Shown here piece after piece: positions 4,556 to 55,449 of a stretch of 64,000 bases of DNA. This DNA is from Ardenticatena maritima (GTDB lineage: Bacteria; Chloroflexota; Anaerolineae; Ardenticatenales; Ardenticatenaceae). A program made the position numbers and the translations under genes. The stretch is taken from positions 434,001 through 498,000 of the forward strand of contig NZ_LGKN01000004.1 in the NCBI RefSeq assembly GCF_001306175.1, given 5' to 3'. Every line of letters begins with the position of its first letter. The first letter of the stretch is position 1. Below the pieces are notes generated by a model that saw only the letters and a program-made list of their open reading frames with translations, was not told the DNA's origin and made no database searches.

Positions 4556-5119
4556 ATGAAGATTTACACCAAAACGGGCGACGAAGGCAAAACCGGTCTT
4601 TTTGGCGGGCAACGTGTCAGCAAAGACGCCCCCCGTGTGGAAGCCTATGGCACGGTGGACGAACTCAACGCCATCCTCGGTGTTGTTGCCACCATGCTAG
4701 ACGACCCCCATCTGCTCGAACGCGTGCGCCACATCCAAGCCGACCTCTTCGTGTTGGGCGCTGACCTTGCCACGCCCGCCGACGCAGGCAAAGCCGCTGC
4801 GTGGGTGCCACGGCTCACCGCCGCAGACATCCAACGCCTGGAAATCTGGATTGACGAAGCCGAAGCCGAACTCGAACCGATGAAAACGTTCATCCTGCCG
4901 GGGGGAACCCCCGCCGCCGCCCAACTCCACCTGGCACGCACCGTCTGTCGCCGCGCCGAGCGCCGCGTTGTCTCGCTGGAACACTTTGAACCCATCACAC
5001 CTGAAGTGCGCATCTACCTCAACCGCCTGAGCGACTTGCTCTTTGTCTGGGCGCGGCTCGTCAACCAGCGGGCAGGCGTCCAAGATATTCCCTGGACGCC
5101 CCCAACTTCTAAACAATAA
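4556..5119 (+). CDS. cob(I)alamin adenosyltransferase, PduO type
   Basis: A 187-residue enzyme that transfers the adenosyl group of ATP to cob(I)alamin to make coenzyme B12. The N-terminus KIYTKTGDEGKTGLFGG is the ATP-binding signature of the PduO/MMAB family; YGTVDELNAILG and the C-terminal SDLLFVWARLVN complete the five-helix bundle pattern. GGAGG lies eight bases before the ATG. No cobalamin riboswitch is visible in the 20-base gap after ogt, and no other B12 genes are in the window. Its end overlaps the converging exonuclease gene by 11 bases. Confidence 0.9.
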   Translation: MKIYTKTGDEGKTGLFGGQRVSKDAPRVEAYGTVDELNAILGVVATMLDDPHLLERVRHIQADLFVLGADLATPADAGKAAAWVPRLTAADIQRLEIWIDEAEAELEPMKTFILPGGTPAAAQLHLARTVCRRAERRVVSLEHFEPITPEVRIYLNRLSDLLFVWARLVNQRAGVQDIPWTPPTSKQ

Positions 5120-5693
5120 TCCCCATCTGGCGCGAGGGGCGTCCGCCGAACAGCCGCCAATTCACGGGCACACGCTTCTTGGACCGTGTGAAGCGGTCCC
5201 AATAGAGCACATAGCCGTTGTCGCGCCCGAATTCGTACAACCGGCGGGTAACGTCCACATCTTGCATGCAGTAATCGCGGATAAGGTCAATGCGCCCCTC
5301 GCGCCACCATTGCAACGCCTGCAACCCATCCGCCGATTTGCGAATGCCCAGCGTGTTGTACGCCAGCGAATCCAGTTTGACGCGGAAGCCCAGGCGGCGG
5401 TGAATATCATCCAGCATGTCGAGCGTGCGGCGCGGGCGCACCGGTCGCCCCAGAACGCCAGCCAGCACCAAATAGTCGAAACGCAGCACATTGAAGCCCA
5501 CAACAACATCCGCTGTTTCCAGTGCCTGCACCAATTGCGGCACTTCGTGCGCATGATAGACGTGGAACGCGCGATCAGCGTAATCGTAAGTCACCGCCAG
5601 CGAAACCCCCAGGCGGGCGATATGCTCGCGCCCTCCCACTTCATCAAAACTGCGTTGCGTCTCCAAATCAAACACGACAATCCGTTGCGTCAT
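5109..5693 (-). CDS. DEDD-family 3'-5' exonuclease / RNase H-like protein
   Basis: A 194-residue single-domain nuclease of the ribonuclease H-like superfamily. It opens VVFDLETQRSF with the first metal-binding Asp and Glu (DxE), has the middle motif FNVLRFDYLVL, and ends with YCMQDVDVTRRLYEF, where the last Asp of the DEDD set lies. Such proteins trim DNA or RNA 3' ends; the exact substrate is unknown. GGAGAG before the ATG at 5693 fixes the start. It follows a phosphoribosyltransferase gene that has its own terminator, so it is probably transcribed separately. Confidence 0.75.
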   Translation of the reverse strand: MTQRIVVFDLETQRSFDEVGGREHIARLGVSLAVTYDYADRAFHVYHAHEVPQLVQALETADVVVGFNVLRFDYLVLAGVLGRPVRPRRTLDMLDDIHRRLGFRVKLDSLAYNTLGIRKSADGLQALQWWREGRIDLIRDYCMQDVDVTRRLYEFGRDNGYVLYWDRFTRSKKRVPVNWRLFGGRPSRQMGIIV

Positions 5694-5772
5694 GAGCGGC
5701 TCTCCTTCCACAGGTGTGAGATAGCGCGAGTATAGCAGAGAGGCGCGACGGGTGAAGCCGCGGCGGGAGATG

Positions 5773-5796
5773 AAAAAAGAGGGCGCGCGCCCTCTT
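5773..5796 (-). terminator. terminator of the phosphoribosyltransferase gene
   Basis: AAGAGGGCGC directly followed by GCGCCCTCTT, a perfect palindrome, then a T run on the reverse strand (TTTTTTC). It starts 7 bases after the stop codon at 5804. Confidence 0.8.
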
Positions 5797-5803
5797 GTCC
5801 GGC

Positions 5804-6301
5804 TTACTCTTCCCCTTGCGCCCGCTCCTCTTCCAACAAGCGGTCGCGCTCGGGGTCCCACGGATAGACAATCCAGTCGTCGGTCTCCATCACGTAGTAA
5901 TCGGGCTTTTGCCCTGGGAATTTGTTGTGCGCGGGCTTGAAGTGAATAACGGCCACATCGGCTTCGCCACCCGCCTTGCGGATACGGTCACGCACCGCCA
6001 CTGCGGTCTTCCCGCTATCCCACACGTCATCCACCACCAAAATGCGCTTGCCCACCAGCAGCGCATCGCTGGGAAACTGCAAGAAAACCGGCTCATCCAG
6101 CGTTTGCCCCACATCGGTGTAGAACATGACCGCCGCCGTGAGCACGTTGCGCAAGTCCAGCAACTCACTCACCAGACACCCTGGAATCATGCCGCCGCGT
6201 GTAATCGCCAGGACGGCGTCGTAGCGGCTGGGGTCAATTTGCTTGACGAGTTCACGCGTCAGTTCTTCAATGCGCTCCCACGAATGAAAATCTTTTTTCA
6301 T
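5804..6301 (-). CDS. type I phosphoribosyltransferase (purine/xanthine-guanine type)
   Basis: A 165-residue cytosolic phosphoribosyltransferase. The PRPP-binding loop ILVVDDVWDSGKTAVAV and the earlier AITRGGMIPGCL are typical of the xanthine-guanine/hypoxanthine group that salvages purine bases. The tail (KPDYYVMETDDWIVYPWDPERD) resembles the hood of Gpt-like proteins, with aromatic and acidic residues for the base. GGGAGG precedes the ATG at 6301. The base specificity cannot be read from sequence alone. It lies 69 bases after the PBP2 gene on the same strand. Confidence 0.8.
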   Translation of the reverse strand: MKKDFHSWERIEELTRELVKQIDPSRYDAVLAITRGGMIPGCLVSELLDLRNVLTAAVMFYTDVGQTLDEPVFLQFPSDALLVGKRILVVDDVWDSGKTAVAVRDRIRKAGGEADVAVIHFKPAHNKFPGQKPDYYVMETDDWIVYPWDPERDRLLEEERAQGEE

Positions 6302-6370
6302 GAGTGTGTGCCTCCCCCACAAAGTTGGTGTTCAGACAATACCACAAAGCCCCATTTTGGGAGAAATGCC

Positions 6371-8470
6371 TCAGCCCTGCGCCGCCACGCCAAAGTAGTG
6401 CGCCAGCACTTCGCGCACCATCGGCGCCGCCACACCCGACCCCTCGCCGGCGTTTTCCGCCATCGCCACCACCGCAATCTCAGGCGTGGGGGCGGGGGCG
6501 TAAGCCGCAAACCAGGCATGCGGCGCCACGCCAGGCGCTTCGGCGGTGCCCGTCTTGCCCGCCACGGGCACGGGAAACTCGCGGAAAATGTGGCTGGCGG
6601 TGCCGCGCGGCGGCTGTGTCACGCGCAACAAGGCGTCGCGAATGGCTTGCAGGTATTCAGGCGCAAGGTCGAGTGTGCCATCCACCTGCGGCTCAAAAGT
6701 CAACGGCGGGCGCTCTCCTGTGGGGTCTTCCGCAGAGACGATGATTTGCGGGCGATAGAGCGTGCCGCCGTTGGCAATAGCCGCCATCATGCGGGCAATT
6801 TGCAAGGGTGTTGTCAGCAAGAAGCCTTGCCCAATCGCCATGTTCACACTATCCCCCGGCGTCCAGCCGACGCCTTGCACGCTCACCTTCCACTCGTTAT
6901 CTGGCACCAGCCCAGCGCTCTCATCCAGTTCGACGCCGGTCAGCGCCCCCAACCCAAAACGCCGCGCATACGTTTGCAGCAAGTTGGGATCGCGGTTGTA
7001 CGCCGCCAGCCCCACTTCGTAGAACACCACGTCGCACGATTCGACCAACCCGTTGGAAAGGTCAATCGTGCCATGCCCGCTGGACTTCCAGCAGTTCATG
7101 CGAATGCCCAGGCGGTCCCAATAGCCCGGGCAGTTGAAGGTGCTGGTGGTGGCAAACAATCCTTCTTGCAGGGCTGTCGCCATCGAGACAATTTTGAAGA
7201 CGGAACCAGGCGGATATGCGCCCTGCGTGGCGCGGTTCAGCAATGGCTGGTCGGCTCGGTTGATGAAGGCAAGGCGCTGTTGGAGATCGAGCAGGTTGGA
7301 CATGGCGTTGGGGTCAAACGTGGGGGCGCTGGCAAGCGCCAGGACGCGCCCCGTCTTGACATCCAGCACCACGACGGAGCCCCGTTTGCCGTCCAGAACG
7401 GCTTCGGCGACTTGTTGAAGCCCCACGTCAAGGCTGGTGTGCAGACTGAGGCTTTGCTGGGCGGGCACATCGGCGAGCGTCGCCACTTCTTGCCCCTCAG
7501 GGGTAAGGACCGCCAGGCGTCCCCCTTTTTTGCCCGCCAGCCACTCTTCAGCGGCTTTTTCAAGCCCCATTTTGCCCACAATGTCGTCTTCTTCGTAGCC
7601 GCGTTCCCCCAACGCCGCCAACTCCTCGCGGCTGATTGGTCCCACGTAGCCGAGCACGTGCGCCGCTGTGCTTCCTTGTGGGTACGAACGGGCGGCTTGC
7701 TCGCGGAAATCAAGCCCGGGAATGGCCGCCAGGGTGTCGTACTGTTCTTGAAACGTCTCAAAGGCAATTCGCCCCACAGGGATGAACCAATCAGGCGGCT
7801 GGTTCGCATACAACGCGGCAATATCGGCGGGGGCTTTGTTCAACAAAGCGCTGAGCACATTCAACATAGTCGGCTCATCCTGAATACGCCCAGGCACCAC
7901 CCCCACCACAACAATCGCGCCCTGTGTGGCGAGGATATTGCGCTGGCGGTCGTAGATGACGCCGCGCGTCGAAGTGCGTTTGAAAAGGCGCAGGACGTTG
8001 CCCTCGCCCAGTTGGGGGATGATGGTGGCGGGCGTCCAACGAATGCGCCAGGTCTCGCCGACCAACGTCATCGGGAGACGTGGGCGCACCACCAAATCGC
8101 CCACCAGGCGCGTGCGATAGACGGCGTCGAAATCGGCGGCGGCGGTTGTCGCGTCCAGCCGCCCCGCCGCCACAAGCGTTGTCTCGAAGGCGTAAATGGT
8201 GGCTTCGTCAAAAAGTTGGCGGTAGGTTTGCACAAAATCATCGCGCGTGATACGCGCCTGGCTTTCATCGTCCAGCAAGGCGTACATGGTATCGAAATCA
8301 TCCGCTTGCCACGCCGATAAAAACGTGCGGGCGATAGGTTCGGGCGATTCGGCGGGCGGGGTTGCCGAGGGGGTGGGCAACAATGCCGCTTGTTGCCGAC
8401 ATGCCGCAAGCAGAGCGGCGGCAACTCCCGATGGAACGAGTTTCAAGACAGCACGTCGCGTCAGTCGCAT
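6371..8470 (-). CDS. penicillin-binding protein 2, lipoprotein with MecA-type N-domain
   Basis: A 699-residue transpeptidase that cross-links peptidoglycan outside the membrane. The N-terminus MRLTRRAVLKL followed by LLAAC is a lipobox (acylated Cys24) with a twin-arginine-like start, instead of the usual transmembrane anchor. Residues about 45-165 look like the NTF2-like domain of MecA/PBP2a-type proteins; a dimerisation domain follows (RGVIYDRQRNILAT). The catalytic domain has YPPGSVFK (active Ser, SxxK, about residue 420), ESCD as the second motif and KTGTAEAP (about 636). It is longer than a minimal PBP2 because of the N-domain. Its own promoter lies at 8509-8536. No RodA/FtsW partner is adjacent. 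Confidence 0.88.
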   Translation of the reverse strand: MRLTRRAVLKLVPSGVAAALLAACRQQAALLPTPSATPPAESPEPIARTFLSAWQADDFDTMYALLDDESQARITRDDFVQTYRQLFDEATIYAFETTLVAAGRLDATTAAADFDAVYRTRLVGDLVVRPRLPMTLVGETWRIRWTPATIIPQLGEGNVLRLFKRTSTRGVIYDRQRNILATQGAIVVVGVVPGRIQDEPTMLNVLSALLNKAPADIAALYANQPPDWFIPVGRIAFETFQEQYDTLAAIPGLDFREQAARSYPQGSTAAHVLGYVGPISREELAALGERGYEEDDIVGKMGLEKAAEEWLAGKKGGRLAVLTPEGQEVATLADVPAQQSLSLHTSLDVGLQQVAEAVLDGKRGSVVVLDVKTGRVLALASAPTFDPNAMSNLLDLQQRLAFINRADQPLLNRATQGAYPPGSVFKIVSMATALQEGLFATTSTFNCPGYWDRLGIRMNCWKSSGHGTIDLSNGLVESCDVVFYEVGLAAYNRDPNLLQTYARRFGLGALTGVELDESAGLVPDNEWKVSVQGVGWTPGDSVNMAIGQGFLLTTPLQIARMMAAIANGGTLYRPQIIVSAEDPTGERPPLTFEPQVDGTLDLAPEYLQAIRDALLRVTQPPRGTASHIFREFPVPVAGKTGTAEAPGVAPHAWFAAYAPAPTPEIAVVAMAENAGEGSGVAAPMVREVLAHYFGVAAQG

Positions 8471-8508
8471 AGGTTCCTGGCTCGCATGGTGTGATTGTTG
8501 GTGGGCAA

Positions 8509-8536
8509 ATTGTATGAAAGTGTCCAGTGGAAACAA
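8509..8536 (-). promoter_or_regulatory. promoter of the PBP2 gene
   Basis: Reverse strand TTGTTT (8531-8536), 16 bases, TACAAT (8509-8514), about 39 bases before the ATG. Confidence 0.5.
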
Positions 8537-8634
8537 AATTGGCGCTCAGCGCCGCTTTTCATGCTTTCATCTTATTTGGTATTTCCCCAGGCGGCGGCTA
8601 AGATGAACGCCCAACGATGACGAAGGAGCCACGT

Positions 8635-8952
8635 ATGAGCAGTGATCAAAATCGTTTTCCCAATTGCCGCTTTTTCCATTACGACTACTTGCGCGGTCAC
8701 GAACGCATGGAATGCCGCTTGTTGCGCAAAAGTGGATATGCGGCTTTGTGGAATTTGAAACTCTGCGAGACGTGCCCTGTGCCCCGCATTCTGCAAGAAA
8801 GCACATGCCGCCACCTGGTGCTGGAAGCGGAAGTTGTGCGCAAATGGGGCTTATTCCCGCGCGTGAAGGTCTTTGCCGTCTGTTCGGCAAGCCTGCAAAC
8901 GCTTGATAACCCTCTGCGATGCCCCCATTGTGAAGCCGAAGAGCCCGCGTAA
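8635..8952 (+). CDS. cysteine-rich hypothetical protein (105 aa)
   Basis: An unrecognised soluble protein with eight cysteines, including two CxxC pairs (LCETCPVP near residue 45 and RCPHC near the C-terminus) plus NCRFF, MECRLL, STCRHL and VCSAS. This spacing suggests binding of zinc or an iron-sulfur centre, but no known family pattern is complete. GAAGGAG is eight bases before the ATG at 8635, chosen over an ATG six codons upstream. It ends 6 bases from the converging ccmB gene. Confidence 0.7.
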   Translation: MSSDQNRFPNCRFFHYDYLRGHERMECRLLRKSGYAALWNLKLCETCPVPRILQESTCRHLVLEAEVVRKWGLFPRVKVFAVCSASLQTLDNPLRCPHCEAEEPA

Positions 8953-8958
8953 GCGGCG

Positions 8959-9633
8959 CTACTCTTCCAACACAAAATCGAAGAGCAACACCGCCACGGT
9001 GAAGAAGAGCACATCAAACGCGGTGAGAATCAAAAGCCAACGCCCGCCTTCTTGCCAGAGGCTGTTGCCGTCCATGACGATACGCCCAGCATTGACGCCC
9101 GCAATCACCACGGGAATGAGCAAGGGCATGACGAGCACGGGCAACAGCACATCGCGCAAGCGCGTGTTGGTACTCATCGCGGCAAACAGCGTCCCGATGA
9201 TGGCAACGCCCAACGTTCCCAGAAGCAGCGGCACGCTCATCAAAAGCGGAATGGAAACGGTAAACATCGCCGCAAAGAGCGGAATGACAATGACTTCGAC
9301 CAGCACCAAAAAGATGAAGGTGCTCAGGAACTTTCCCGCATAAATCGCGCTGCGGTCAACTGGCACAAGCATGAGCGCCGCCACAGCCGATTGGTCTTGC
9401 TCGCGGGCAAAACTGCGGTTCAAGCCCAAAAGCGCGGCAAACAGAATCATCACCCAGAGCAAGCCGGGGGTGACGGTGCGCCGGTCAACCGGCGAGAGGT
9501 CGAGCGCGAAGTTGAAGATGAAGATGGCGAGCACCCCAAAGAGCGCCATCACGCTCAAAATCTCGCGGCTCCGCCATTCAATGCGCAAATCCTTCGCCGC
9601 AATCAACCATGCCGCTCGCAGGTACTCACGCAT
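8959..9633 (-). CDS. ccmB: heme exporter permease CcmB
   Basis: A 224-residue membrane protein with six predicted membrane segments, the permease half of the CcmAB ATP-driven machine that releases holo-CcmE during cytochrome c maturation. The N-terminus (LIAAKDLRIEWRSREILSVMALFGVL) and the segment FAREQDQSAVAALMLVPVDRSAIYAGK match the family. The start at 9633 overlaps the end of ccmA by 8 bases, indicating translational coupling. It is the last gene of the ccm operon; no ccmC follows. Confidence 0.9.
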   Translation of the reverse strand: MREYLRAAWLIAAKDLRIEWRSREILSVMALFGVLAIFIFNFALDLSPVDRRTVTPGLLWVMILFAALLGLNRSFAREQDQSAVAALMLVPVDRSAIYAGKFLSTFIFLVLVEVIVIPLFAAMFTVSIPLLMSVPLLLGTLGVAIIGTLFAAMSTNTRLRDVLLPVLVMPLLIPVVIAGVNAGRIVMDGNSLWQEGGRWLLILTAFDVLFFTVAVLLFDFVLEE

Positions 9634-10333
9634 GCGCCCCTCCCACGTAGCGCCGATAGAGCGTGCGCCATTCGTCCATGGTGTGGGCTTCGCGTGGGGC
9701 GTTGTGCACAATTTTCCCCCCGGCGAGGATAGCGATATGGTCGCCAAGCGCCAGCCCCTGCTCCAGGTTGTGTGTCGTCATGATGATGGTGCGCCCACGG
9801 CGGGCGGTTTCGGCAAGCAACGCTCCAAACCGCTCCGCCGCGCCTTCATCCAGCCCCGTGAAGGGTTCATCCAGCAGAAGAATCAGCGGGTCGTGCAAAA
9901 GGGCGCGCGCAATAGTGGCACGCTGAATCATGCCACGGGAGAACGTGCGCACAGCGTCGTGGGCGCGATGCGCCAACCCGACTTCATCCAGCAGGTGGCG
10001 AATGCGGTTGTCGGGGTCGGGCAGGGCGTAGAGTTGCGCGAAAAAGCGCAAGTTTTCGTAGAGTGTGAGGTCGGGGTAAAGCAGGCTCTGGTGCGAGACC
10101 ATGCCAATCGCGCGGCGGGCTTCGGTCCAATCGCTGCGCAGTTCGTAGCCGTTCAGCCGCACACACCCACGTGTGGGGCGGCTGAGGGTCGCGATAATTT
10201 TGAGCAAGGTGGTTTTCCCTGCACCGTTGGGACCAAAGAGGGTCAGAAACTGCCCCTGGGCAATCGTCAGGTTGATGCCCCGCAAAACGCGATGATGCCC
10301 AAATTGCTTGTGCAGGTTCTCGATTTCAATCAC
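9626..10333 (-). CDS. ccmA: heme exporter ATPase CcmA
   Basis: A 235-residue ABC ATPase. Walker A is GPNGAGKTT, the Q-loop region SHQSLLYPDLT, the signature FSRGMIQR (an S-R-G form of LSGGQ), and Walker B LILLLDEPFTGLD, with the switch His in MTTHNLEQG. Together with CcmB it forms the ATP-dependent step of heme handling. The start is a GTG at 10333 embedded in the stop region of the upstream zinc-ribbon gene (8-base overlap); longer in-frame starts would run far into that gene. Confidence 0.88.
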   Translation of the reverse strand: MIEIENLHKQFGHHRVLRGINLTIAQGQFLTLFGPNGAGKTTLLKIIATLSRPTRGCVRLNGYELRSDWTEARRAIGMVSHQSLLYPDLTLYENLRFFAQLYALPDPDNRIRHLLDEVGLAHRAHDAVRTFSRGMIQRATIARALLHDPLILLLDEPFTGLDEGAAERFGALLAETARRGRTIIMTTHNLEQGLALGDHIAILAGGKIVHNAPREAHTMDEWRTLYRRYVGGAHA

Positions 10334-10820
10334 CGTGACTCGTCTGTTCCGCCATGTTTGGTTCGTTGACGGGTGTTCCACATTGCGCGCAAAAACGCGC
10401 GTTGACGGGCAAAGGCGCGCCGCACTGCACACACGCGCGCGCCGTCCCCCGCTGTTGGCGCAACGCCGCCACAGCGCGATCAATCCACTCATCCAGCAGG
10501 CGGTCATCGTCCGTGGTGGGCACATCAACCGCCTGTTCGAGTTCGTCCAGGCGCTTCAAAATAGCGGCGGCCTGCATGCGATAGCGCGCGTCCAATGCGC
10601 GGAAATCGGCTTCGCTGAGTTTGCCCATGCTGAAATCAAATTGTAGGTCGCGCAGCGCGTTGAGAACGGCTTCGCGTTGAAAGAGCAACGTTTCCAGTTC
10701 TTCCAGGCGCGGGTCGGGTTGGAAGGTATCGCTTCCCCCAGTGCGCCGCATCAGCGGACGCACCGCCCACGTCACCAGCAGTGCGATAAGTGCGAGTGCG
10801 ACGAATGTTTCAATGGTCAT
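10326..10820 (-). CDS. ccm-operon protein with coiled coil and zinc ribbon
   Basis: A 164-residue protein with one N-terminal membrane segment (residues about 5-22), a helical/coiled-coil middle (LEELETLLFQREAVLNALRDLQFDFSMGKLSEADF, the pattern of CcmI-like N-domains) and a C-terminal zinc ribbon CVQCG-x8-FCAQCG. In cytochrome c maturation CcmI presents apocytochrome to the ligase; this protein may take a similar place, but that is inference from position and the helical segment. It lies 15 bases after ccmF and overlaps ccmA. Confidence 0.7.
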   Translation of the reverse strand: MTIETFVALALIALLVTWAVRPLMRRTGGSDTFQPDPRLEELETLLFQREAVLNALRDLQFDFSMGKLSEADFRALDARYRMQAAAILKRLDELEQAVDVPTTDDDRLLDEWIDRAVAALRQQRGTARACVQCGAPLPVNARFCAQCGTPVNEPNMAEQTSHGD

Positions 10821-10835
10821 GCTTGCCCTCTCATT

Positions 10836-12836
10836 TCACACATGCACGCCCAAGCCGGAGCGTTCGCGTGCTTGCAAGCGTTCCAAAATGCGCTCTTCGC
10901 GCGGGTCGGGCCACATGGCAATCCAGACGCCCAGCAAGAGCACCAAGCCCCCAATCCAGACCCAAGCCACGAGCGGGTTGATGAAAATCTTGAACGTGAC
11001 GGAGTTATCGTCGTTGACGCCGGTCAACACCACGTAGAAATCTTCGGTGAGCGTGGATTCAACCGCCACCTCGGTTTCACGTTGCCCACCGGGCACTTTG
11101 AAGTGCCAATCGAGCGCGGGCGTCATCACGCCCAGAAAGCGGTCGTTCTTCCAGACATGAATGGGCGCCGCGACACGTTCCTTGATGAGGTCGCGCGAAG
11201 TCTCCACACCCAGAAACTGAATGCGATAGGCTTCCACCTGCGCCGTTTCACCCGGCGCCAGCGTCACGTCTTTGCTGCGGTCGTACACACGCGAGCCAAT
11301 CACACCAATGCTGAGCAGAACGATACCCAGGTGGATAATGTAGCCCCCATAGCGGCGGCGATTTTTCGCCACCAGCGAGAGCAACGCTGTATGCGGGGCT
11401 TCTCCTGTGCGCATGCGTTGTGTGCGCCACGCACGCCCAATCTCCGCAAGGTGCCCGACGGCGATGAAAGCCGCCACCGGCAGAGAGACAAGCGTCACCC
11501 ACTCACGCACGCCGCCGAGGAACAGCGCCACCACCGTCACGAGCGCCGCCCCAACAGGCAGCATGAGGGTACGCCGCAATTGCGGCAGCGAGACGCGCCG
11601 CCACGGCAACAACGGCGCAATCCCCATAAGCAACAACATCGCCAACAGCAAGGGTCCCGCCACCTGATTGAAGTACGGCTCGCCCACGACAACACGGCGC
11701 CCCGTCGCCAGTTCGCTGACGATGGGGTAAATCGTGCCCCAGAAAACAGCGAACCAGATACCGAGGAAGAGAACGTTATTCAACAAAAAGGCCGTTTCGC
11801 GCGAGACCATGGCATCAAGTTGGTGGTCGCTTTTGAGCAAGGGCAGTTTCTGGTAGAGCAAACCGAATGAGCCCAGCAAGAGAATAGCGATATAGACCAG
11901 GAAGTAGGTGCCAATTTTGCCTGTCGCGAAAGCGTGAATGGATTCAAGGACGCCGCTCCGCGTGAGGAACGTGCCGAAAATGCTCAACACAAACGTGAGC
12001 ATGATGAGCACCATGTTCCAGACTTTGAACATGCCGCGTTGTTCCTGCACCATGACGGAGTGCAAGAAGGCGGTGCCCACCAGCCACGGCATCAGCGAAG
12101 CGTTTTCGACGGGGTCCCACGCCCAGTAGCCCCCCCAACCGAGTTCGTTGTACGCCCACCAACCGCCCAAGCCAATGCCAATGCTGAGGAACATCCACGC
12201 CACCAACGTCCAGCGGCGCGACAAACGCACCCACGTGGCGCTTGTGCGCCCCGTCAGCAAGGCGGCGATAGCAAACGCAAAGGGAACGGTAAAGCCGACA
12301 AAGCCGGCGTAGAGCATGGGGGGGTGCATAATCATAGCAGGGTGCTGGAGCAAGGGGTTCAAGCCGCGCCCGTCGGTTTGGGGCACGGGCAAAAGCGCGA
12401 ACGGGTGCGCTTCAAAATTCATGACGATCAGGAAGAATGTAAGCACAAAGGCGTGCACAGCCAGGACATAGGGCATGAACGGCGCGGCATTTTCGCGGTG
12501 CACGAGGTACACAGCGGCTGTGTAGATGACCAGCAGAAGCGCCCAAAAGAGCAATGAACCTTCTTGCCCGCCCCAAATCCCCGTGATGGTGTAGAAGAGG
12601 GGTTGCCCAATGCTGGTTTGTCGCCACACATAGGCAAAGCGAAAGTCCTGCGAGATGAGCAGATACTCAAGCAGCAGGAAGGCAAGCACAACGAGCGCCC
12701 CCGCGCCAAACAGCGCATTGCGTCCACTCAGGACAAGTTCAGGCAATCGCCGCCGCGCCCCGAAGAAGAGCGCCACGGTCGCATAAGCGGCTAACCCCAA
12801 CGCCGCCAACATGATGAGATAGCCGGCATCAGCCAT
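10836..12836 (-). CDS. ccmF: cytochrome c heme lyase CcmF/NrfE family
   Basis: A 666-residue membrane protein with about 14 hydrophobic segments. It holds the tryptophan-rich heme-handling motif WGGYWAWDPVENASLMPW (about residue 235) shared by CcmF, CcmC and CcsA, flanked by conserved histidines (VHAFVLTFF, HPPMLY). It attaches heme to CxxCH of apocytochromes on the outer face of the membrane. GGAGAG precedes the ATG at 12836. It follows ccmE after 80 bases that contain an intra-operon hairpin. Confidence 0.93.
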   Translation of the reverse strand: MADAGYLIMLAALGLAAYATVALFFGARRRLPELVLSGRNALFGAGALVVLAFLLLEYLLISQDFRFAYVWRQTSIGQPLFYTITGIWGGQEGSLLFWALLLVIYTAAVYLVHRENAAPFMPYVLAVHAFVLTFFLIVMNFEAHPFALLPVPQTDGRGLNPLLQHPAMIMHPPMLYAGFVGFTVPFAFAIAALLTGRTSATWVRLSRRWTLVAWMFLSIGIGLGGWWAYNELGWGGYWAWDPVENASLMPWLVGTAFLHSVMVQEQRGMFKVWNMVLIMLTFVLSIFGTFLTRSGVLESIHAFATGKIGTYFLVYIAILLLGSFGLLYQKLPLLKSDHQLDAMVSRETAFLLNNVLFLGIWFAVFWGTIYPIVSELATGRRVVVGEPYFNQVAGPLLLAMLLLMGIAPLLPWRRVSLPQLRRTLMLPVGAALVTVVALFLGGVREWVTLVSLPVAAFIAVGHLAEIGRAWRTQRMRTGEAPHTALLSLVAKNRRRYGGYIIHLGIVLLSIGVIGSRVYDRSKDVTLAPGETAQVEAYRIQFLGVETSRDLIKERVAAPIHVWKNDRFLGVMTPALDWHFKVPGGQRETEVAVESTLTEDFYVVLTGVNDDNSVTFKIFINPLVAWVWIGGLVLLLGVWIAMWPDPREERILERLQARERSGLGVHV

Positions 12837-12863
12837 GTGCCTCTCCTTTCTTCAACAAAACAA

Positions 12864-12891
12864 ATGCAGGGACGTGCTGTCATCCCTGCAT
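12864..12891 (-). terminator. intra-operon terminator-like hairpin between ccmE and ccmF
   Basis: In the reverse transcript ATGCAGGGA pairs perfectly with TCCCTGCAT across a 10-base loop, followed by TTGTTTTGTTG. It would lower downstream expression or act as an mRNA end for a ccmE-only transcript. Confidence 0.6.
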
Positions 12892-12916
12892 CCATTCATT
12901 TTGAAAACGTGGCCCC

Positions 12917-13408
12917 TCATTGCCCGTCGGTTGGCACGCCCTGGTAGTGGTCGGCGGGCACTTCCGCGCCCGATTCAGCGGCTTCTTCATACTTCGACGG
13001 ACATTTCACAAGAATATTGCTGGCTTCAAACACACCGTTTTCGTTCACCCGCCCTTCGACAATCACACTGGTGCTTTTCATAAAAAGGTCGGGCATCACA
13101 TCGTGATAGACCACCGGCATGCGGTTGCCCTGGTCATCCACCATATCAAAGCGCAAAACGATGTTGCGCGTATCGTATTCGACGCTTTCCTTGTCCACCA
13201 CGGCCTCAACACGCACCATATCGCCCACAATGGCATCACCACGCGCCACCATTTCGGCAAGCGTGATGTAGTACGCGCCACCGGCACGCACGCCCTGATA
13301 GATGAGGAACGCCATGGCAAGGAGAATCACCACCCCGCCAACGACAAACTTGAATTTGCGTTTTGGAATAGGCCCAATGTGAGGCTCTTCGCGCACGAGT
13401 ACCGACAT
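12917..13408 (-). CDS. ccmE: heme chaperone CcmE, cysteine (CxxxY) type
   Basis: A 163-residue protein: one N-terminal membrane anchor (residues about 20-38) and an OB-fold beta barrel (VRVEAVVDKESVEY, MPVVYHDVMPDLF, VIVEGRV). CcmE holds heme on its way to CcmF. The usual heme-binding histidine is replaced: the motif here is ILVKCPSKYEE, with Cys136 and Tyr140, the CxxxY variant known from some anaerobes and archaea. Start at 13408 is chosen from the membrane-anchor pattern; an ATG 22 codons upstream would lie inside the promoter. It is the first gene of the operon. Confidence 0.9.
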   Translation of the reverse strand: MSVLVREEPHIGPIPKRKFKFVVGGVVILLAMAFLIYQGVRAGGAYYITLAEMVARGDAIVGDMVRVEAVVDKESVEYDTRNIVLRFDMVDDQGNRMPVVYHDVMPDLFMKSTSVIVEGRVNENGVFEASNILVKCPSKYEEAAESGAEVPADHYQGVPTDGQ

Positions 13409-13445
13409 GTTTTGCCTCCGTTCCGTCGGGTCGGATTGCACGCGC

Positions 13446-13474
13446 ATTGTAGCATAAGGAACAGGAGTTTCCAA
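13446..13474 (-). promoter_or_regulatory. promoter of the ccm operon
   Basis: Reverse strand TTGGAA (13469-13474), 17 bases, TACAAT (13446-13451). Transcription would start near 13439, about 30 bases before ccmE. Confidence 0.65.
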
Positions 13475-13534
13475 CTGACATGGCTCGTGATATTTGTCAC
13501 ATTTTCATCATCAGAACACCTTGGAAGATGCATT

Positions 13535-13564
13535 TTGCCTTGTAAGCACTCATGCTAGTATATA
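13535..13564 (+). promoter_or_regulatory. possible promoter of the PBP1A gene
   Basis: TTGCCT (13535-13540), 18 bases, TATATA (13559-13564), about 50 bases before the ATG at 13615. Confidence 0.4.
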
Positions 13565-13614
13565 CCCTTGTACATGCGGAAAAAAACGATTGTCGTTTTC
13601 GAGGTGAAACACCT

Positions 13615-16600
13615 ATGCGCGAAGCAACCAAACTCGCACTTCTGCACCGCATCGAACGCCAGCGGCGCAAGAAAAAACAACCCGGCATGAAACGTCTCGC
13701 CCAAATTGGCGCCGCCCTGTTGGTGGTGTTCTTGCTCATGGCGATGATTCCTGTCGCCGGTGCGGCTGTGGGCGCAGCGTATCTGATGGAACTGACGCCC
13801 CCAATTATTGACCGCGCCGTCGAGCAAGCCGTGGGATTCGGCGTGCAAGTGTACGCGACCTATTTCTTCGATGAAGAATTGCCCTCGCCGGACGACCTGG
13901 CGCGCCGCACGCAGCGCGTTTTCAAAACCACCAAAATTTACGACCGCACGGGGCAACATCTTCTGTGGGAAATTATTGACCCTGAAGGCGGCAACCGCCA
14001 GGTGGTGCCTTTGGAAGACATTCCCGTGCATGTGCGCCTCGCAACGATTGCACTGGAAGACCGCACGTTCTACGAAAACCCCGGCGTGAACTTGCGCGGG
14101 ATTGCGCGTGCGCTCTACCAAAACCTGCGCTATGGCACAGTCGTGCAAGGGGGGTCTTCCATTACCCAACAGCTCGTCAAAAATGTGTTGATTGACCCCG
14201 AAGAGCGCTATCAGCAAAGCTATAGCCGCAAAATCAAGGAAGTCATCCTGGCGTTCGAGATTTCGCGCCGCTATGACAAGGATACCATTCTTGAATGGTA
14301 CCTCAACACGATCAACTACGGACGCCTCGCGTATGGTATCCAGGCCGCTGCGCAAACCTATTTTGGGAAAGACGCCAAAGATTTGACGCTGGCGGAAGCC
14401 GCCATGTTAGCGGCGCTTCCTAACGCACCGGCGCTCTACGACCCCTTCACCGCGCCGGAACAAGCCAAAAAGCGCCAGGAAATTACCCTGCAAGCCATGT
14501 ATGAAGCGGGGTTCATTACCCGCGAAGAAATGGAAGCCGCCAAAGCCGAGCCGGTCCTCGACCACCTCGCCGAACCAAAACGCTATGAAATCAAGGCGCC
14601 GCATTTTGTCTTCTATGTGCAGAAGTTGCTGGAAGAAAAATATGGTCCCGACATGGTCTATCGGGGCGGTTTGACGGTTTACACCACGATTGACCTCGAC
14701 ATTCAAAAAATTGCCGAAGAATCGGCACGCGAGCACGTTCGTAAACTGCAAGAAGACCCCGAGAAGCACGTCACGAACGCCGCTGTCGTCGTGCTCAACC
14801 CCAAAACGGGCGAAATTCTCTCGATGGTGGGGAGCCTGGACTATTTTGATTCGTCCATTGACGGGCAAATCAACATGGCGATTACGCCCCGCCAGCCTGG
14901 TTCCAGCTTCAAGCCTTTCACCTATGTAACGGCGTTCGCCAAAGGGTACACCCCCGCCACGATGGTGTGGGACGTGCGCACTGTGTTCGACGATTATCCC
15001 AACCCCGCTTACGTCCCCGAAAACTATGACCGCCGGTATCACGGTCCTGTAACGCTGCGTGAAGCCCTCGCCAACAGTTACAACATCCCCGCCGTGAAGT
15101 TGCTGGAAATGGTGGGCATTCCCGCTGTGCTTGAAACAGCGCACCGCATGGGCATCAACACCTTGAACCGTGAAGACTACGGGTTGAGCCTGACGCTCGG
15201 CGGTGGTGAAGTCACTCTGCTGGACATGACCTACGCATACAGTGTTTTTGCCAACAATGGCGTGATGGCGGGTACGCCTGTGCCGCCCGAAAAACGGCGC
15301 CCTGGCTATCGTGAACTCGACCCTGTGGCGATTTTGCGCGTCGAGGACGCCAACGGAAACATTCTGGAAGAATACACACAACCCGAAACACGCCAGGTGC
15401 TTTCGCCGCAGTTGGCGTATCTCATCACGGACATTCTGAGCGATGAAGTCGCCCGCCAACCGGCTATGGGCGCCGGCAGCCCCTTGTTGCTGAGCCGTCC
15501 CGCCGCCGCCAAAACGGGGACGACCAACGACTTCCGCGACAACTGGACAATCGGCTACACGCCGCAATTTGTGACAGGCGTGTGGGTCGGGAACGCGGAC
15601 AACAGCGAGATGGGGCACGTCTCAGGGCTGGACGGCGCCGCCCCTATCTGGCATGACATCATGGAGAAAATCCACGAAGGCTTGCCGGTGGAAGAGTTCA
15701 TCCCGCCGCCTGGGCTGGTTGCCGTGCAAGTCTGCGCGAAAAGCGGGCTTCTCCCCACACCGGCGTGCCCGCGCATTCGCACGGAAATTTTTATCGAAGG
15801 CACACAGCCAACCACATACGACAACCTGTATCAGATTTTCCGCATCTGCAAACCGAGCGGCAAACTGGCAACGGTCTATTGCCCGCCCGACCAGGTCGAA
15901 GAAAAGGTTTTCATGGTGGTGCCGCCCGAAGCGATGGAATGGGCGCAACAGGCGGGTATCGAATTGCCGCCGACCGAGTACGACACCACCTATGGCCCCG
16001 TGGCGGGGAGCGGCACAGCAGTGATTACATCGCCGCAACCGTATGGGTACGTGGGCGGCATCGCGCCCATTCAGGGGACCGCCCGCACCGAACCGCCCGA
16101 CCAATTTGAGCTCTACCGCGTGGAGTTTGGTCAAGGGCTCGACCCCGCTTCGTGGATTCAGATTGGTCCCGACCACACGACGCCTGTTGTGGATGGTGTG
16201 CTGGAACAGTGGGATACGCGCGCACTGGAAGAAGGGCTCTACACACTTCAACTCACTGTCTTGCGCAAAGATGGACAGGTGGAGCGCACCAGCGTTCAGG
16301 TGACGGTGGACAATACGCCACCAACGGTGCGTATTACCTACCCGGTCGAGGGGCAAGAGTATGTGCTCAGCGATGATGAATGGGTGAGCATCCAGGTTGA
16401 CGCGAGCGATAACATCGCCATGCGCGAAGTGCGCTTCTTCATTGATGGGCGCGAGTTTACCCGTACCAGCATCGCGCCTTTCACAGCCAAGTGGACGCTC
16501 AACAACGAAGGCGCGTTGGGCCCCAATGAACTGCGCGAGCATGTGGTTTATGTGGTGGCTGTGGACGCGGCAGGGAACGAAACGCAGAGTGAAAGTGTCC

Positions 16601-53214: not shown

Positions 53215-54078
53215 CTACACACGCGGCGCTTCTACCCCTTCGGGGGCTGGCGTCACCGCCACGCCCACCGTCCCCGGTCCAGCGTGCGCCCCCACCACAG
53301 GCCCAATCACCGTTTCGACACAGAACCGCACATCCAGCCTGGCTTCCAATTCGGCGCGCACCTGCGCCGCTTCGTCAGGGGCGTTGGCATGCGCAACCCC
53401 CATCCAGACGGGGGTGTCCTGGTGTTGTTCAGCCACCATCTCAATCATGCGTGCCAATGCGCGCTGGCGTGTGCGCACACGGTCAACCGGTTCCACCACG
53501 CCATGCTGAAGCGCCAGCACCGGCTTGATCCGCAAGAGCGTCCCGAAAAAGGCGCTGGCGTTGCCAATACGCCCACCACGCCGCAAATACTCAAGCGTTT
53601 CCAGCGTGAAAAGCAAGGTTGTCTGCTTGGACATGCGCGTCGCGACATCGGCGGCTTCTTCCCGCGTGGCGCCTTGCCGCACAGCCTGCGCCGCGCCAAG
53701 GACAGCCAGCCCCGTCCCAATCGAAACGAGATACGTATCAACAAGCGTGATGGGCGCATTGGGGAATTGTTGCGCCGCCTGCACCGCCGAGTTGAACGTA
53801 CCGCTCAGTGTATGCGCCAAATGGATGGACAAAATCTCATCGCCGGCGTCAAGGATGGGTTTGTACACTTCCGCAAAGTCATCCGGCGAAGGCTGCGACG
53901 TGGAAGGCGAAATGTTTTTTGACTGCAACATCTCGTAAAATTCCGCCACCGAAAGGTCAACGCCATCGCGATAGATATGGTCGCCGATGATGACTTTCAA
54001 CGGCACGACGGCAATGTCGAAGGCGTTGACAAACGGTTCCGGCAAATTTGCCGCGCTATCTGTAACAATCCGAATCAT
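53215..54078 (-). CDS. DegV family fatty acid-binding protein
   Basis: A 287-residue protein. MIRIVTDSAANLPEPF and KNISPSTSQPSPDDF with SIHLAHTLSGTFNSA are DegV signatures, with the lipid-binding pocket between two lobes; GGRIGNASAFFGTLLRIKP is also typical. Family members such as FakB bind fatty acids and pass them to FakA for phosphorylation. No FakA gene is near. GAGAGGGGTG precedes the ATG at 54078. Confidence 0.9.
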   Translation of the reverse strand: MIRIVTDSAANLPEPFVNAFDIAVVPLKVIIGDHIYRDGVDLSVAEFYEMLQSKNISPSTSQPSPDDFAEVYKPILDAGDEILSIHLAHTLSGTFNSAVQAAQQFPNAPITLVDTYLVSIGTGLAVLGAAQAVRQGATREEAADVATRMSKQTTLLFTLETLEYLRRGGRIGNASAFFGTLLRIKPVLALQHGVVEPVDRVRTRQRALARMIEMVAEQHQDTPVWMGVAHANAPDEAAQVRAELEARLDVRFCVETVIGPVVGAHAGPGTVGVAVTPAPEGVEAPRV

Positions 54079-54108: not shown

Positions 54109-54267
54109 CTATTTTTCATATCGTGCGCCTTCGGCATGGCAAAAGCGCGCATCATGCCAAACACCCTTTGCATTCTTGTACCCACACGAGAGACAGACCT
54201 CTTTGCCACAACGCTTACAAGTGCCCAACACAACCGCCTTGACACGACATTTTGCGTTCGCGCACAT
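54109..54267 (-). CDS. small zinc-binding protein (52 aa)
   Basis: A short gene below usual length cut-offs. The peptide starts MCANAKCRVKAVVLG, has GTCKRCGKEVCLSCGYKN with two CxxC pairs four residues apart (Cys17/20 and Cys25/28), and ends WHDARFCHAEG with His38, Cys43 and His44. Seven Cys and two His in 52 residues imply two zinc sites in a treble-clef or B-box-like arrangement. AGGAGG lies six bases before the ATG at 54267, a near-perfect ribosome site, which argues that it is translated. It follows the DUF420 gene after 27 bases and is probably co-transcribed. Function unknown. Confidence 0.75.
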   Translation of the reverse strand: MCANAKCRVKAVVLGTCKRCGKEVCLSCGYKNAKGVWHDARFCHAEGARYEK

Positions 54268-54294
54268 GGGTTTCCTCCTGTATCTCGATCTCGC

Positions 54295-54711
54295 TCAGAG
54301 TTGATAGAGCATCCAATAAATTACCCACCCTGACGCCGCCACAAACAACCAGACCGGCACAAGCCAGCGCCCAATCCGGCGGTGTTGGCGAAACTGCTTC
54401 TTGTTGGCGCGGTAAATGGCAAGCAACGCCGCCGGACCCACAACCATCGCCAGGATGGAATGCGGAATCAGAATGGCAAAATAGAGCGTGCGCAACCATC
54501 CGCCATGCTCGAATGGTTTCGCGCCCAAGAGCAAAAAGCGGGTCACGTAGAGGACAAGAAACAGCGCCGCAAAAATGGTCGCGCCCAGCATGAGCCGATG
54601 ATGGCGTTCACGCTGTTTGCGCTTGATTGCAATCCAGCCGGCTACCAAAAAGAGACCACTCACCAAAATCATGCCGCTTGTGAGTGGCGGCAACCACGTT
54701 TCGACCCCCAT
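54295..54711 (-). CDS. DUF420 (CtaM/YozB-like) membrane protein
   Basis: A 138-residue protein with four membrane segments and conserved polar residues within them (HHRLMLGATIFAALFLVLYVTR, YFAILIPHSILAMVV, HRRIGRWLVPVWLFVAASGWVIYWMLYQL). The three histidines facing one side of the bundle fit heme or metal binding. DUF420 proteins include CtaM, needed for heme-copper oxidase assembly in some Firmicutes; a similar role here is inference. No oxidase subunits are in the window. Confidence 0.8.
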   Translation of the reverse strand: MGVETWLPPLTSGMILVSGLFLVAGWIAIKRKQRERHHRLMLGATIFAALFLVLYVTRFLLLGAKPFEHGGWLRTLYFAILIPHSILAMVVGPAALLAIYRANKKQFRQHRRIGRWLVPVWLFVAASGWVIYWMLYQL

Positions 54712-54824
54712 TGTGCCTCCTTATCGCTCGATTGTTGTTCAAGGGGTGCAGGCTGCCCGCCATCCTATCTATTTTGAAGAAGATTGCCAACTGATACGCC
54801 AAAACGCTCGCGCGCAACAAAAAA

Positions 54825-54842
54825 CCCCACCCGAAGGTGGGG
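54825..54842 (-). terminator. terminator of copZ
   Basis: Reverse transcript CCCCACC-TTCG-GGTGGGG with a stable tetraloop, then TTTTTTG. Confidence 0.9.
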
Positions 54843-54866
54843 CCACATTCGCCAATGTGCCAGCGT

Positions 54867-55082
54867 TCAGGCGATGACCTCGGCGATGGGATACCCAATC
54901 TCCTCCATCAACGCGGCAATCTTCTCGCGCGACGCCGGCGCATCATACGTCACCACCACGCGCTTTGTCTCCTGGTCGGCTTTGACGTCAACCACGCCTT
55001 CCAACTCTTTCAACTCGCGCTGAATGGTCATCACGCAATGGCCACAGGAAATGGACGGCACGGCATACGTTTCAGTTTGCAT
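54867..55082 (-). CDS. copZ: heavy-metal-associated (HMA) copper chaperone
   Basis: A 71-residue HMA domain. VPSISCGHCVMTIQREL contains the CxxC metal loop (Cys13 and Cys16) in a ferredoxin-like fold, with VVDVKADQETKRVVVTYD and the final EIGYPIAEV strand. Such proteins carry Cu(I) to a P-type ATPase. The gene lies 26 bases after csoR on the same strand and is probably in its regulon. The ATPase itself is outside the window. Confidence 0.9.
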   Translation of the reverse strand: MQTETYAVPSISCGHCVMTIQRELKELEGVVDVKADQETKRVVVTYDAPASREKIAALMEEIGYPIAEVIA

Positions 55083-55108: not shown

Positions 55109-55402
55109 CTACAAACGACTTTGGGCTTCAAACAAATCAGCCAATTCACTGATGACCCGTTCACGTTCCAGCGGGTCATCACCACGAATGGCTGTAATCA
55201 CACAATGGTTCAGGTGGTCGTTGAGAATCAACTGGTTGACTTTATCCAGTGCGCGCTTGATGGCTTGCGTCTGTTGAATAATGTCAATGCAATAGGCATC
55301 GTTTTCGACCATACGGGCAACACCACGCACATGCCCTTCGATACTCTGCAAGCGCGCCAGAATTTCTTTTTTGTGACGGTGATTTTGCGCTTTCTCGCTC
55401 AT
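55109..55402 (-). CDS. csoR: CsoR-type copper-sensing repressor
   Basis: A 97-residue all-helical DUF156 protein. It has ILARLQSIEGHVRGVARMVENDAYCIDIIQQ with the first Cys ligand, then LNDHLNHCVITAI with His and Cys ligands; the C-H-C set is that of Cu(I)-sensing CsoR, not of the formaldehyde-sensing FrmR. It represses copper export genes until copper binds. GGAG six bases before the ATG at 55402 selects this start over a GTG one codon earlier. It and copZ share the promoter at 55450-55477. Confidence 0.92.
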   Translation of the reverse strand: MSEKAQNHRHKKEILARLQSIEGHVRGVARMVENDAYCIDIIQQTQAIKRALDKVNQLILNDHLNHCVITAIRGDDPLERERVISELADLFEAQSRL

Positions 55403-55449
55403 CACAATCTCCTGAATACTCTCCCAGTGTATAAGGGGTTCATATTCAA

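Follow-up and report, generated by a model that had tools for sequence, protein, structure and literature searches.

A lineage-restricted small gene beside DUF420 in Ardenticatena encodes a predicted AN1-like, zinc-finger-type protein

Introduction

A 52-codon open reading frame directly past a DUF420 gene of Ardenticatena maritima raises two questions: whether so small a frame is a gene at all, and whether its Cys/His-rich product takes part in oxidase assembly, as its neighbour and the copper genes close by could suggest. An earlier, sequence-only reading of the locus had proposed that the pair serves copper or heme insertion, citing DUF420 relatives as helpers of heme-copper oxidase. That premise is borne out, as extracts of two papers describe CtaM/YozB as needed for a-type oxidase in Staphylococcus and Bacillus (PMC4958251, PMC9145763). 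According to the same extracts, QoxABCD function in S. aureus needs CtaM even though synthesis of hemes O and A continues, and the B. subtilis cytochromes aa3 and caa3 depend on CtaM/YozB, which may act at CuB or at some other late stage (PMC4958251, PMC9145763). Here we analyse the locus within a 64-kb stretch of DNA (hereafter the window), part of an assembly of 3.56 Mb, and in related genomes.

Results

The genes and sites considered here all lie on the minus strand of the window, in the order csoR type, copZ type, hairpin, promoter-like site, DUF420, small gene, DegV. In the list of open reading frames and translations of the window, the small gene occupies positions 54109 to 54267. Just as had been read from the letters, it lies 27 bases (54268 to 54294) past the DUF420 gene, with an AGGAGG ribosome-binding site (54274 to 54279) six bases before its ATG; at 159 bases it exceeds the usual minimum of Prodigal, 90 bases. 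The DUF420 gene (54295 to 54711) encodes a CtaM/YozB-type membrane protein and matches PF04238 with 135 bits against a cut-off of 30.5 (E 2.5e-39). The next gene after the small gene, missed by the sequence-only reading, is a DegV family gene (53215 to 54078; PF02645, E 1.3e-86), which follows after a gap of 30 bases and whose start, the ATG at 54078, agrees with that of the sister species. Pfam matches confirm that a csoR-type repressor gene (55109 to 55405; PF02583, E 1.4e-27) and a gene for a copZ-like heavy-metal-associated protein (54867 to 55082; PF00403, E 3.8e-16) lie nearby.

Homologues were found in two further genomes, both with ribosome sites similar to that of the small gene in the window. 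The sister Ardenticatena genome (G001) carries the gene in the same order with a GGAGG-type site, and a genome of another genus within the family (G003) carries a copy with 61% identity over 51 residues and AAGGAG six bases before its ATG. The 29 nucleotide differences between window and sister are distributed 3/2/24 over codon positions 1, 2 and 3, giving 21 silent and 4 non-silent codon changes. Estimates of dN and dS are 0.046 and 1.95 by NG86, and 0.041 and 0.78 by YN00, where dS is near saturation and the ratio is therefore rough, though its direction is plain; dS against the G003 copy was not computable. Because substitutions are biased towards the third position, dN is low against dS and the sister protein is 92% identical, the sequence comparison indicates that the small gene is a real, translated, conserved gene under purifying selection.

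Thirty columns are invariant across the three copies. They include C2, C7, C17, C20, C25, C28, H38 and C43, eight potential zinc ligands that persist down to 61% identity; H44 is not among them, the most distant copy having Gln at this position. The two CxxC pairs (C17/C20 and C25/C28) and the terminal His/Cys (H38, C43, H44) noted earlier are present; C2 and C7 had been left out. Reading by eye, we saw no hydrophobic stretch in the 52 residues. Across all six frames of the window, a relaxed regular expression hits the small gene alone, and 60 simulated 64-kb sequences (first-order Markov) give no hit; this expression was written after the protein had been seen, and conservation and substitution pattern are the stronger evidence.

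Over all searches run, homologues were confined to three genomes of one family. A single-sequence scan of a large genome collection, which finds close relatives only, returned two loci: the sister species and a Clostridia locus (L005, 33%), the latter dropped because it falls within a repeat-like frame of 909 residues. Among 100 genomes of relatives, five matched, the window's own included, and three were counted; G092 was dropped for an internal stop, and G068 was not counted because it covers 25 residues only. The G068 locus (L008, around 1501-1575) is a 44-residue frame with 48% identity to residues 16-40, VWHD included, with no first half seen. The class and phylum searches, samples of 396 and 400 genomes, gave 10 and 11 genomes respectively at E <= 0.01, each with the window's own. 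Three were counted in the class search and seven matches (E 0.002-0.0096) were dropped, either for internal stops (G171, G268, G032) or as partial (G068, G287, G206, G138). The ten phylum matches dropped comprise two with internal stops, four short or unconvincing, and four that by their sequence we take to be three ribosomal protein L32 and one electron-transfer subunit. Plasmids yielded a single weak hit, at E 0.8, which lies under a crcB gene, searches of phages and of PHROGs found no match to the small protein, and none of 23 pattern matches in viral contigs was confirmed.

The best Pfam match of the small protein is zf-AN1 (PF01428; E 2.3e-4, 21.7 bits), with residues 2-30 spanning profile positions 1-29 of 40. 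The curated gathering cut-off of 27.9 bits is reached by none of the copies: the window scores 21.7, the sister copy (L004) 20.1, and the G003 copy (L007) 14.8, second there to FYVE at 15.9 bits, which is also under its cut-off. In all three copies the first five ligands, C2-x4-C7-x9-C17-x2-C20-x4-C25, fit the AN1 pattern C-x(2,4)-C-x(9,12)-C-x(1,2)-C-x4-C, whereas what follows C25, x2-C28-x9-H38-x4-C43, departs from the AN1 continuation x2-H-x5-H-x-C. We call the protein AN1-like and not a member of the AN1 family, since its spacing resembles that of AN1 and cross-brace fingers but its score stays under the cut-off. The earlier description of a small Cys/His-rich zinc-type protein thus gains support from eight invariant potential ligands in an AN1-like spacing.

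Among solved structures, the best single-sequence match is 1x4v, whose E of 0.17 is not significant; its aligned part carries the same C-x4-C-x9-C-x2-C-x4-C spacing. A three-row profile reached a best E of 0.088, with ribosomal protein L37 leading. An AlphaFold model built from two sequences was poor (mean pLDDT 59.1), and none of the 28 matches from a PDB fold search with it was at E <= 0.001. Given the poor model and the lack of a significant PDB match, we read the fold from ligand spacing alone.

Weak zf-AN1 matches are also found more widely. At E <= 1, five of six family genomes match (the window's own at E 0.00154) and none is above the cut-off, and these matches mean little because 7 of 14 controls match at the same limit. 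Seven of 400 phylum genomes match at E <= 0.001, again none above the cut-off, against 1 of 14 controls; the window's own genome fails that limit in this search. Of these seven loci we read six, leaving out L056 for an internal stop. Four of the seven genomes, all of other Chloroflexota (G477, G484, G512 and G646, at L057, L058, L060 and L059), hold frames with C-x4-C and then C-x2-C-x4-C-x2-H, for which zf-AN1 is the best Pfam match in three and the second in one, all under the cut-off; these frames may represent bacterial fingers of a group not yet described. Separately, the family genome G002, in which the small gene was not found, has a frame (L021, around 1501-1584) with C-x2-C, then C-x2-C-x4-C-x2-H, then C-x2-C and a basic tail, weakly DUF2180-like (E 0.043). 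Literature searches on AN1 fingers in prokaryotes found nothing useful, and found no paper treating Ardenticatena together with a zinc finger.

How closely is the small gene tied to DUF420? Its position past a 27-base gap, in the same order in both Ardenticatena genomes, is that expected of a gene co-transcribed with DUF420, as the sequence-only reading had supposed. The trio of DUF420, small gene and DegV was observed in these two genomes and in no other of the family genomes. DUF420, COX1 and a csoR-type gene were each present in all six family genomes searched, and the small gene in three. A search for homologues next to DUF420 succeeded in the sister Ardenticatena but not in G003, where the copy follows a PspC-domain gene (L007 1122-1376; E 5.6e-17), a different membrane-protein neighbour, and where DUF420 lies on another contig among other neighbours. 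The small gene need not have DUF420 as its neighbour; with two of three occurrences linked, both in one genus, the association does not amount to conserved linkage or co-occurrence. No homologue was found in G002, G004 or G005, all of which have DUF420 and COX1, and in which DUF420 and the closest DegV relatives are on different contigs. Completeness is 99%, 96% and 86% for these three genomes and 83%, in 1070 contigs, for G003, so misses or misassignments are possible.

The copper genes appear to belong elsewhere. A hairpin with a T run (54823 to 54844) follows copZ, and resembles an intrinsic terminator; only 2 of 200 shuffles fold as well or better (z -2.80). A promoter-like site, TTGGCA-N17-TAGGAT (54762 to 54790, a consensus match only), stands 50 bases ahead of DUF420 in the window and in the sister genome alike, and it is at this site, at 54791, that the DUF420 block starts to resemble the sister species at the DNA level. 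Because such consensus scans have a high background (promoter-like sites 5 against 1.5 in shuffles, terminator-like 8 against 5.2), we rely for both sites on their placement and conservation. The copZ and DUF420 genes of the sister species lie on the same contig and strand with csoR-copZ upstream, about 9 kb apart as against 155 bases in the window. That interval (L052, G001 contig 46, about 4955-13985) includes two tRNA-Met genes. In this alignment, synteny is broken between copZ and DUF420, beside tRNA genes. On the hairpin, the promoter-like site and the separation in the sister, csoR-copZ is probably a transcription unit separate from DUF420. The copper theme, examined by promoter and terminator scan, folding, sister alignment and a csoR-family search, was therefore rejected as evidence of shared function, and the presence of csoR is in itself uninformative, since csoR-type genes occur in all six family genomes.

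Discussion

From gene order, conservation and ligand spacing, we judge the small gene to be real but ordinary, lineage-restricted and of zinc-finger type, with zinc binding predicted. We think it likely, though well short of assured, that it encodes an AN1-like protein with two interleaved zinc sites, acting as an adaptor or regulator and a companion of DUF420 and DegV, and not as a factor for the insertion of copper or heme. The gene, its conservation, the spacing of its ligands and its order are observed; zinc binding, ligand pairing, fold, co-transcription and the adaptor role we infer. The protein would probably be cytosolic, and its eight invariant Cys/His would hold two zinc ions in a cross-brace as in AN1, FYVE and IBR, with C2/C7/C25/C28 probably binding one and C17/C20/H38/C43 the other. 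Zinc would serve a structural role, and the folded knob, with its conserved R8, R19, Y30, K31, W37, D39 and F42, would most likely dock on a partner protein or nucleic acid. In Ardenticatena, the gene probably shares with DUF420 and DegV a promoter that serves these three and is expressed together with them, as a companion specific to the lineage.

A rather unlikely alternative is that the protein binds a single zinc, as a knuckle or ribbon formed by the two CxxC pairs that perhaps touches RNA or the ribosome, and that the other Cys/His serve otherwise. It draws on weak similarity to models of zinc-ribbon and rubredoxin-like proteins, as well as to ribosomal protein L37, but the L37 match requires a seven-residue insertion between the CxxC pairs, and the four residues that separate them are short for a zinc ribbon. 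One archaeal protein for which two zinc sites were predicted is reported to bind a single zinc (PMC11241148). Against the one-zinc reading stands the invariance of eight ligands in all three copies. Some predicted small archaeal zinc fingers are reported to bind no zinc (PMC11241148), which counts against the main reading.

In line with the original proposal of copper or heme insertion, the small protein could help DUF420 to assemble heme-copper oxidase by handling copper or heme at the cytosolic face; we regard this as quite unlikely. It would account for the conserved adjacency in Ardenticatena, is consistent with the need for DUF420/CtaM in a-type oxidases in the extracts cited above (PMC4958251, PMC9145763), and fits the presence of COX1 throughout the family. 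The third copy, however, from a fragmented assembly, is not beside DUF420, three family genomes with DUF420 and COX1 have no detected homologue, and the copZ-csoR genes apparently form a unit apart; the copper or heme reading is weak and not supported.

More speculative still, and very improbable, is that a bacterial AN1-like finger with its own ligand set acts as a cytosolic adaptor and couples DUF420, the oxidase-assembly protein, to lipid binding of the DegV type within one operon. If true, regulation would connect the maturation of the oxidase to the lipid state of the membrane; we know of no such connection from published work. Homologues are few, which would fit a non-functional or chance frame, but third-position bias, low dN against dS, invariant ligands and ribosome sites in the homologues all argue against it and make it scarcely credible.

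If the zinc-finger reading is right, a stand-alone bacterial cross-brace finger with its own ligand set would be added to a class more familiar from eukaryotes and archaea, and would point to a loosely defined Chloroflexota group of AN1-like fingers left out by the Pfam cut-off. It would not open the copper or heme question of the sequence-only reading.

Set beside known systems, the small protein is not of the CtaM/YozB (DUF420) family, whose members are membrane proteins. AN1 fingers, exemplified by the human ZFAND proteins, share with it the spacing of the first five ligands and a total of eight, but it has Cys for His at ligand 6 and a last pair, H-x4-C, after nine residues, and it is a stand-alone protein of 52 residues with a score under the cut-off. 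The FYVE and IBR cross-brace fingers (PF01363, PF01485) share the C-x2-C-x4-C-x2-C core and give weak matches, but the small protein falls far under their cut-offs, its first pair is C-x4-C and it is without the final CxxC. The small zinc-finger proteins of Haloferax volcanii, as described in extracts of two papers, are likewise stand-alone proteins of fewer than 70 residues with CxxCG-type motifs, mostly with no assigned function, but they are archaeal and differ in ligand layout (PMC6562870, PMC11241148). HVO_0649, the only such NCBIfam model to appear, matches only at E 0.55. The four AN1-like frames of other Chloroflexota have His at ligand 6 where the small protein has Cys and another last pair, and in its ligand spacing the small protein resembles this loose set of AN1-like fingers.
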